Assembly: GCA_030656575.1 (NCBI GenBank)
Contig: JAUSPO010000083.1
Coordinates: forward strand, 1 to 37,678
Origin: Bacillota bacterium
GTDB taxonomy: Bacteria; Bacillota; Dethiobacteria; DTU022; UBA8154
Direction: 5' to 3'
Length of the DNA stretch: 37,678 nt
Shown here: piece by piece, positions 18,341 to 20,656 of the stretch
Numbering within the stretch: the stretch's first letter is position 1
Layout of the letters: each line of letters opens with the position of its first letter
Notes under the pieces: generated by a model
The model's database searches: none
Seen by the model: only the letters and a program-made list of their open reading frames with translations
What the model was told of the DNA's origin: nothing
Position numbers and translations under genes: made by a program

Positions 18341-19702
18341 ATTTCTCCGGAAAGACCATAACTGGTTCACCAAGATTAAGCAGGCAGAGGCAGTAGCCCA
18401 GTAGATGTTCAGCCACCTTCTCTTCCAGGGGATTCTCATCTATTCCGGCAGGAAGGCTCCAGTTAGGTTTAGGATTTACCTCGATCATCCAAATTTCCTT
18501 TTTTTCATCTACGGCAATATCGAAGCCTAATTCCCCAAAAGGTTTTTCATGTAATTCATCTAGGACTTTTGCAATTTGGATGACAGCTTCTTCTATTTTA
18601 TTAAGGATTCGTTCACCTTGAAACGTAGAGAAAACATCCGAGAGTATTTCGTCTGCAGAAAACCTGCACCCTCCCCATATTCGACTCGTAATAATACCTG
18701 ATACAGGCCCTACTCTTGCATTTGCCACAAGAATGTCCCATTCTCCCTGCTTATTTTTGAAAAGGTGGATTCGAAAGTCTACAGGCCTGTTTTGATAATG
18801 TATTAACTTTACCGTTTCCTGAACCAAATAAGGCTGGCGTGTAATGATTTTTTTAAATACTTCAGATAACTTTTTTCTGTTTTTAATGGTTTTTTTTATT
18901 TTTTCTGATTGTGACAGATGATGTTCAACCGTATATTCTTTATTGCCATAAACGCTTACTTTATAAACACCTAGACCGAGAGAGGAAACAATGGGTTTAA
19001 GATACACAGAATGGTGTTTTTTCAAGAAATCGTAAAAGCTTTCAAAGGAAACGCAGTTTTGTGTGTCGGGCAGGTATTTGCTGATTGCCGTATAACTGCT
19101 TAGTAGATCATGGTTTTGCATTTTATCACGGAGAGCGAGAAAAGGGTTTATTAATTTTATTCTCTCATTTTTTTTTAGATAATCCAGAAACAGCCTGCTG
19201 TAGAAAGGTCTAAGTTCTTCACTGATATATCCTGTCTGATTATAAATGATGTCAGGCATTGGAAATTCTCCGGTAATCCAGTTTTTTTGACTGTATTTAA
19301 AGCCTGTAACAGTTTCTTTTTCAAAATTAATTAAATCTGGAGTAAAAAAAAGCAGATCATACCCCTCTTTGAGGCATTCTCTGCGATGCTTTCGTAAAGG
19401 GACACAATTTGTTTTCCCAGCATGATGGGCGGAACTCCGCTTAGTATTCCCAAAACCGGCCCAATTCTTAGTTCATTTTTCTTATCGTTTGAAAAAAACC
19501 CCAGGGGTTGGCGGGCACGGCTTAAAAAAAGTTCTGTTATTGTGTCCGGCCTGATTATGTACTTTTTACCTAAAGTTGCATCTATTTCAAATCTAACTTT
19601 CTCTTTCTTTACGCCAACCCCCAAGTATGTCTCCGTATTACAATTAATATTGAGACTTTTTGCCAGATCTTCAGAGAGCCGAATCAAACTGTTCCCCCCC
19701 AA
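18333..19702 (-). pseudogene. YheC/YheD-type spore-coat ATP-grasp protein, frameshifted
   Basis: Two frames make up one protein. The upstream part (TTG at 19702 down to 19331) has the family N-terminal region ending RIGPVLGILSG, then GKQIVSLYESIAENASKRGM. The downstream part (continuing to 18333) carries the ATP-grasp domain: YLKPIVSSLGLGVYKV, LVQETVKLIHYQNRPVDFRIHLF, GELGFDIAVDEKKEIWMIEVNPKPN. The break is in an 8-A run (19344-19351, plus strand). One extra base gives a single frame of 456 residues, close to Bacillus YheD. Residues between the two parts (TPDLINFEKETVTGFKYS) are read across the junction without further stops. Family members are associated with the endospore coat. The N terminus may lack a few residues, because a stop lies 7 codons above the TTG and a 7-C run adjoins it. 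Confidence 0.8.
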
Positions 19703-19902
19703 ATGCTTTTTCCCATCTACATTTTATGATTAGGCACTTCTTTCTGTTCAAAGAGGATAAGCATTGTAGGTTGGTGATTTTCGAGTACGACCCTGCAGAT
19801 TACATTAAAATAGCTGGAACAAGATCAACTTACCCTTGTATCATTTCTGTAGTTCAAAGAATAAGCATTTTGGGTTGATAACTCTCAAAGCATAGCCAGA
19901 TT

Positions 19903-20188
19903 CATACTATGCAATCCGCCCGGGTGGTGAATGCTGAGCCGGAAATAACGGTTTCCTGCGGAAAGCTCTAAGGCTCAACTCCAGGCCCTAGGGGACATTC
20001 CTCTGCAAGAGGTGTGTCCCCAGACCTTGAAAAATGACTCCTCCGGCGGAACTCCCTTCCAGGTCGTCGCCGGGCCTGCTGACGTCCTGTCAGCAGGGTC
20101 ACCTCCGGCCCTACGTCTCGCCAAGAGCTTTTTGCCGCAGGAAACAAAGTTATTTCCGGCAACAGCATTCACCACCCCATACTAGGCA
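19903..20188. repeat. Long branched inverted repeat, candidate structured RNA or MITE
   Basis: Left arm 19922-19970 (GGGTGGTGAATGCT, CCGGAAATAAC, TTTCCTGCGG, AAGCTCT) pairs in order with right arm 20125-20177 (AGAGCTT, CCGCAGGAAA, GTTATTTCCGG, AGCATTCACCACCC), giving four helices of 7 to 14 bp separated by small bulges. The interior adds three more hairpins: GGGGACA/TGTCCCC (19991-20021), CCGGCG/CGCCGG (20043-20073) and a perfect 9-bp CCTGCTGAC/GTCAGCAGG (20075-20097). CATACTATGCA (19903-19913) and CATACTAGGCA (20178-20188) flank it as near-identical direct repeats, as expected of an inserted element, although 8 nt separate the left one from the arm. No plausible protein is encoded. Confidence 0.8.
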
Positions 20189-20656
20189 TATCCCTGTGGA
20201 GCACCAACAAAGAACGAAATTAACGGTTACCAGTAACACATTTTCCATAGTTGGCGCAGGACTGTAGGCTTACGACTTGTGCAGCGAAGCAAAAAGTTTA
20301 GGTGAAGCGAGGGTTGGAGTTGGCCCAGTTGACTGGATGTCAGCTTCAAGGCAGAGGACCATGGATGGAAGTTCTGCCCAGAAGGTCTTCGGATCCCCGA
20401 GCTGAGCAGTAGAACTTTTGAGCGGAACTTGGGAGTGAACCCCAGCCATTGATATTCTATGCCTTGACTCTAGGAACCCAACAAAGTATGGAAATGGTCT
20501 TCCACCTGTCTACCACCCGCTTACATACTAACCCCCACTACACGACCAGATCACACTATAATGACGGTTGACAATACTCTATGTTTTCCGCAGATAGCGT
20601 AGAACTTATCTTCTCGCGGAACTACTTGGTGCGAACTCTGCGACAGCCCGCAATAC
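20189..20656. other. Gene-free stretch with diverged direct repeats
   Basis: No credible gene on either strand. GTAGAACTT followed by GCGGAACT occurs at 20409-20430 and again at 20599-20623; each copy is followed by a GTGAAC or GCGAAC and a CAGCC, so a unit of about 45-50 nt appears duplicated 190 nt apart. AAGTTCT (about 20369) can also pair with AGAACTT (20411-20417). Base composition is richer in GC than neighbouring gaps. Together with the adjacent 19903-20188 element it forms a non-coding island running from 19703 to 20656; 19703-19902 itself shows nothing recognisable. Confidence 0.5.

Follow-up and report, generated by a model that had tools for sequence, protein, structure and literature searches.

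A dispersed, structured repeat family in Dethiobacteria with a covarying core and twin GGA-loop hairpins

The window, meaning the whole 37,678-nucleotide stretch of DNA analysed here, belongs to a genome of 3.0 Mb in 195 contigs (G000). It holds a large palindrome, element A, which runs from GGGTGGTGAATGCTG to CAGCATTCACCACCC at 19922-20177 and is defined by its copies, its fold and its match to R1, a covariance model of the core built from nine sequences. The structured core reads 5' to 3' on the minus strand, where R1 matches it at 19965-20122 (E 9.8e-15). Bulged arms of about 50 nt enclosing three hairpins, one with a perfect 9-bp stem, had been described in the first-pass annotation of this DNA, and both the sequence and the folds bear the description out. 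As RNA, the plus strand of element A folds at -147.7 kcal/mol (z -11.4) and the minus strand at -163.2 kcal/mol (z -10.0), and for neither strand did any of 200 shuffles fold as well. Hairpin H1, at 20075-20097 on the minus strand, has the perfect 9-bp stem CCTGCTGAC/GTCAGCAGG and GGA in its loop (complement at 20085-20087). Hairpin H2 (CCGGCGACGACCTGGAAGGGAGTTCCGCCGG, with the stem CCGGCG...CGCCGG) lies beside it at 20043-20073 on the same strand and also bears GGA in its loop (complement at 20058-20060). The third hairpin, H3 (GGGGACATTCCTCTGCAAGAGGTGTGTCCCC, GGGGACA...TGTCCCC, 19991-20021), is a REP-like repeat within element A; a stretch of about 40 nt matches dispersed copies in its own genome and in relatives, and H3 is missing from otherwise similar elements, such as loci L056 and L058. 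Two 11-mers stand where the annotation had placed them as flanking repeats, CATACTATGCA at 19903-19913, which fits the motif CATAYTAA, and CATACTAGGCA at 20178-20188, at the start of a linker, and both lie outside the unit that is conserved between copies.

Element A is followed by related units. The linker at 20179-20247 (plus strand) resembles linkers beside copies on contigs C170, C103, C44 and elsewhere, and joins element A to element C, a second structured unit on the plus strand at 20248-20456, with its core at 20301-20415. Element C is 85% identical to C136:11336-11545, and R1 scores it at 105 bits (E 6.6e-34), this copy having belonged to the training set of the model. Further along, at 20505-20600 on the plus strand, lies what appears to be the remnant right end and linker of another unit (TACCACCC...CATACTAAC at 20524-20532...GTTTTCC), judged by its resemblance to the linkers of other copies. 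A mini-ORF in the linker (MYENGS...) was rejected by inspection, as it is not conserved between copies, and an integron attC array was set aside after an informal inspection in which the linker core did not fit GTTRRRY. A search of the window against Rfam gave a single match at threshold, far from the palindrome, and a search of plasmid DNA gave no match. The Rfam match is a PyrR binding site (RF00515, 36084-36190, minus strand, 63.2 bits), an ordinary regulator of a pyrimidine operon.

The unit is one of many in its own genome. Element A has five full-length copies there, counting that of the window, to which the other four are 89-93% identical, and the span conserved among them (about 41-301 of the query) is the palindrome without its CATACTA flanks. 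Subfamily B, which has the 3' half of the unit in common with element A at 72-77%, contributes 11 near-complete copies at 88-95% identity to the query copy, and type C is present in one other copy near full length and several partial ones. The first-pass annotation had held that the lack of any second copy would count against its reading; since many copies exist, that objection falls away. Units are frequently arranged in short arrays, spaced by a linker of about 70-85 nt that starts with CATACTAAC. B and C units and one A copy, on C125, have the core in one orientation to the linker, and the other four A copies (C85, C170, C103 and C44) have it in the opposite one, which suggests inversion through the long arms. 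The A copy on C125 (L030, G000:C125:22490-22744) lies between spoIIIAB and spoIIIAC and begins at the spoIIIAB stop codon. At L033:6190-6640 a type-C unit stands within a broken type-A unit, as a nested insertion or a rearrangement.

Comparison with relatives reveals that the family is mobile and inserts into intergenic DNA, with units at sites that are empty in close relatives. Between mcsB and clpC, genomes G019 and G021 carry a single TATATTAA or CATATTAA ahead of the ribosome-binding site. The same place is occupied in G001 by a linker and an element, flanked by CATATTAA and CATACTAA, and in G010 by another member of the family. The window's genome has an insertion between spoIIIAB and spoIIIAC that all ten relatives listed in the comparison lack. 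A MITE-like mobile unit, one of three identities first proposed for the palindrome, is thus upheld by the many copies, by the empty and filled sites and, in one lineage, by target-site duplications (TSDs). A second proposal was a chromosomal protein-binding site, which here would mean a dispersed functional DNA motif for a protein of the nucleoid or of segregation. Dispersed intergenic palindromes would be expected of such a site, but copy number varies widely between close relatives, empty sites and nested and truncated copies occur, and conservation tracks a branched fold and not a duplex site; we regard this explanation as very improbable indeed.

The ends of the units differ from lineage to lineage. 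A complete unit of the window's family would be bounded by YTAA|CCGCCACGACCC and CATTTTCATA|YTAA. Among units in the genus of G001, host DNA at the left end usually reads YTAA, and the right end is CATTTTCATAYTAA. The palindrome of the window's lineage is long, yet its linker ends are not simple inverted repeats. The only common direct repeat in this lineage is the YTAA-type motif, and a statistical test on a noisy automatic set found no significant longer TSD (z at most 2.1). The CATACTA repeats around element A are real, but a simple TSD of this copy is not the best reading of them. The motif of CATACTATGCA and CATACTAGGCA opens the linker beside many copies and is met again where elements end within arrays, which makes it a feature of the family, better described as the terminal or target motif CATAYTAA. 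The picture is different in the G279 lineage, where the units have inverted terminal repeats (CTGGCGTATCCCC.../...GGGGATACGCCAG). Exact direct repeats, of 11, 10, 9 and 11 bp, stand at fixed positions around four of the seven copies. Inverted termini with TSDs of 9-11 bp are what a DDE-type transposase leaves, and the two occur together in the G279 lineage only. Units of G319 end in CAGGTGTCTTTTGCC and its complement, which are clear terminal inverted repeats. G279 and G319 are examples of other families of the phylum, in which the core lies within dispersed repeats of about 210-330 bp with different, lineage-specific ends. In the window's lineage some short derivatives have lost the core and retain both ends, so the core is probably not needed for movement. 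There are also units with the same ends around a divergent interior. In G010, loci L317, L326 and L327 share their ends and have very different structured interiors.

Neither an autonomous partner with the same ends nor a mobilising transposase was found among the left-end loci or near the inspected Y1 genes, in a search that was not exhaustive. A non-autonomous, PATE-like derivative of IS200/IS605, moved by a Y1 transposase at AYTAA targets, could be considered, as the left host flank usually ends in YTAA, the right end bears the same motif and hairpins lie close to both ends. However, the Y1 tnpA copies inspected have other ends, and Y1 genes are scarce in G001 and absent in G021, the two relatives richest in copies. 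The TSDs of the G279 lineage also speak against this origin, as the IS200/IS605 family is not known to make any. With no partner Y1 tnpA of matching ends among the copies inspected, we set it down as a poor candidate, with little probability.

The core itself is shared by lineages with different ends. Searches with R1, both run with Infernal's stricter filters so that weak matches may be missed, gave hits in 25 of the 98 genomes searched in the class (presumably Dethiobacteria), with at least 38 matches each in G001 and G021, and in 29 of 399 sampled genomes of the phylum, across 17 families. The nearest named relatives are Dethiobacter sp. SURF_39 (G010), Dethiobacter being a member of Dethiobacteria in Bacillota, and a metagenome-assembled genome labelled Desulfovibrio sp. 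DeMMO6_36 (G001). The latter (JAGVAS01 contigs) groups with the Dethiobacter family, and its label therefore looks wrong.

Across this range the fold of the core is under selection. In the 107 class-level cores, whose alignment was fitted to the model and so leans towards structure, standard pairs make up 93.1% of pair cells, and double-sided changes are seen in 25 of 27 pairs. Covariation scores 0.455 in this set, compared with 0.185 for shuffled alignments and at most 0.054 for slid pairings. R1 was built without any of the 32 remote cores, and these score 0.464, compared with 0.144 for shuffles and at most 0.076 for slid pairings; double changes occur in 23 of the 27 pairs. These double-sided changes bear out the first-pass statement that paired segments are conserved and bulges vary, the covariance search proposed earlier yields strong covariation at both class and phylum level, and the third identity first suggested, a large structured RNA, describes how the core behaves. 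The strand is harder to read. Counts of G-U against A-C were 144:49 on the model-fitted alignment and 23:18 in H1 when anchored neutrally, and on the neutral count this test does not prove an RNA on the strand of the core.

This leaves room for the core as a DNA structure needed for transposition, a folded single strand or a cruciform that the transposase would recognise, with the GGA loops as its contacts and not as sites for the regulator CsrA. The whole unit folds back strongly, the left end has a small hairpin beside YTAA, as IS200/605-type ends do, and the strand test is not decisive. However, the same core is found between unrelated ends, one type of which has inverted repeats and TSDs of 9-11 bp, core-less derivatives still have both ends, and Y1 transposases are rare in copy-rich genomes. 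We consider the DNA-structure explanation unlikely, and we favour an RNA core.

Within the core, the most telling features are the two loops. H1 and H2 occur in all types as adjacent hairpins inside the closing stem. GGA occupies the H1 loop in 100 of 107 class-level cores and the H2 loop in 90 of 99, and both loops in all 32 phylum-level remote cores, while the closing pairs vary; the GGA columns remain among the most conserved after thinning at 80% identity. The strict form AYGGAY is found only in part of them. Paired GGA motifs in hairpin loops are a feature by which CsrA-binding RNAs are recognised, and the core has them. At first no known family was recognised in the palindrome, which is nearly right: no copy tested reaches an Rfam threshold, although a weak pointer to TwoAYGGAY (RF01731) comes from remote members. 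This is the best Rfam match of the G319 copies (31-36 bits, E 0.014-0.17, aligned over H1 and H2), whose seven loci are copies of one another and not independent, and in a second lineage, L350, it ranks first among 4227 families (24.5 bits, E 0.094). The gathering threshold of RF01731 is 43 bits, against a best score of 36 here; the window's copy has no match to the family up to E 5, and the remote locus L348 none up to E 10. The matches being weak, they are a lead to homology and not a sign of membership.

TwoAYGGAY was first listed by Weinberg and colleagues (PMC2864571) and has been reported in Clostridiales and others (PMC2864571, PMC4333381). Gardner and Eldai proposed that it binds CsrA, because of its GGA hairpins (PMC4333381). 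It belongs to Rfam clan CL00106, as does CsrB. The architecture is like that of our core, two adjacent hairpins with AYGGAY or GGA loops closed by a common stem, but here the core belongs to mobile repeats of high copy number that have long arms in addition, whereas Rfam labels TwoAYGGAY as cis-regulatory.

The repeats could likewise be cis-acting RNA devices, such as terminators, insulators or mRNA stabilisers, tolerated or selected between genes and having no role in trans. They are intergenic, several stand within a single operon (spoIIIA, mcsB-clpC, hisD-hisB), and their hairpins are strong. A terminator, however, needs neither conserved GGA loops nor a multibranch core. With neighbouring genes taken roughly as the longest open frames, the core has no preferred orientation towards them (71 of 157, p 0.26; 35 of 58, p 0.15), as random insertion would give; this counts against a leader or terminator that acts purely in cis. 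A purely cis-acting device is, in our judgement, improbable.

Our preferred reading is a non-autonomous, MITE-like element that carries a TwoAYGGAY-like twin-GGA RNA, which would be transcribed and bind a CsrA-type protein; we place the combination at even chances, and rate its mobile, structured part, taken alone, as the more probable. The interior is the common part of these repeats and the ends differ, and this is the main reason to think that the core has a job of its own. The interior would be a structured RNA module of about 200 nt with two adjacent GGA-loop hairpins, in a unit moved in trans by a transposase that recognises lineage-specific ends. The core may be transcribed on its own or by read-through. 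The GGA hairpins of CsrB-type RNAs are known to bind CsrA. By analogy with them, and on the proposal made for TwoAYGGAY, the paired hairpins could bind CsrA or a similar dimeric GGA-binding protein, which the many copies would then titrate or anchor. A further step, which we offer tentatively and think somewhat unlikely, is a mobile regulator sponge: a phylum-wide RNA with twin CsrA-type sites, riding on unrelated transposon ends in tens of copies or more per genome, would set the level of free regulator, by a logic comparable to that of SINEs built from host RNAs.

The family shares features with several known systems. Like bacterial MITEs, the repeats are short, non-coding, multiple, dispersed and foldback-forming, with lineage-specific ends and, in the G279 lineage, TSDs and inverted termini. 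Bacterial MITE-like repeats are normally viewed as ends around decaying filler; here, in contrast, what different families of bacteria have in common is the interior and not the ends, and it shows RNA-like covariation. REP, BIME and REPIN sequences, associated with TnpA_REP (RAYT), are likewise dispersed extragenic palindromes, RAYT-type Y1 genes are common in these genomes, and element A has a short REP-like hairpin, H3, within it. REP and REPIN palindromes, however, measure 20-40 nt, and the present unit is far larger, at 200-330 nt with a multibranch core. The sponge RNAs CsrB, CsrC, RsmY and RsmZ sequester a dimeric regulator through multiple GGA hairpins, as may happen here, but they are single-copy sRNA genes with many sites, whereas these repeats have two sites per unit and many units per genome. 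The BOX elements of Streptococcus pneumoniae are also modular, intergenic, structured repeats. Our literature search, mostly outside subscription journals, found nothing that links CsrA sponges to transposable elements or describes these repeats.

Such a family joins two things that are usually kept apart, MITE-like repeats and a covarying RNA core that persists through changes of the ends. Should the core bind CsrA, each transposition would alter the dose of a global post-transcriptional regulator and place new CsrA sites beside genes such as spoIIIA, clpC and hisB. The repeats also bear on the unexplained TwoAYGGAY family, and provide a testable candidate for a CsrA-sequestering RNA in Bacillota, where such RNAs were proposed. 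The gene csrA was not found in the sampled portion of about 0.66 Mb of the window's genome, in which flagellin and flhA are present, and in the remote host G350, whose type carries at least 6 copies of the repeat, it lies near flagellar genes (flagellin). Two to three small gene pairs resembling toxin-antitoxin systems, recognised by eye from their translations, flank the flagellin region at L410:13150-15022 and 19068-19926 (G000:C156).
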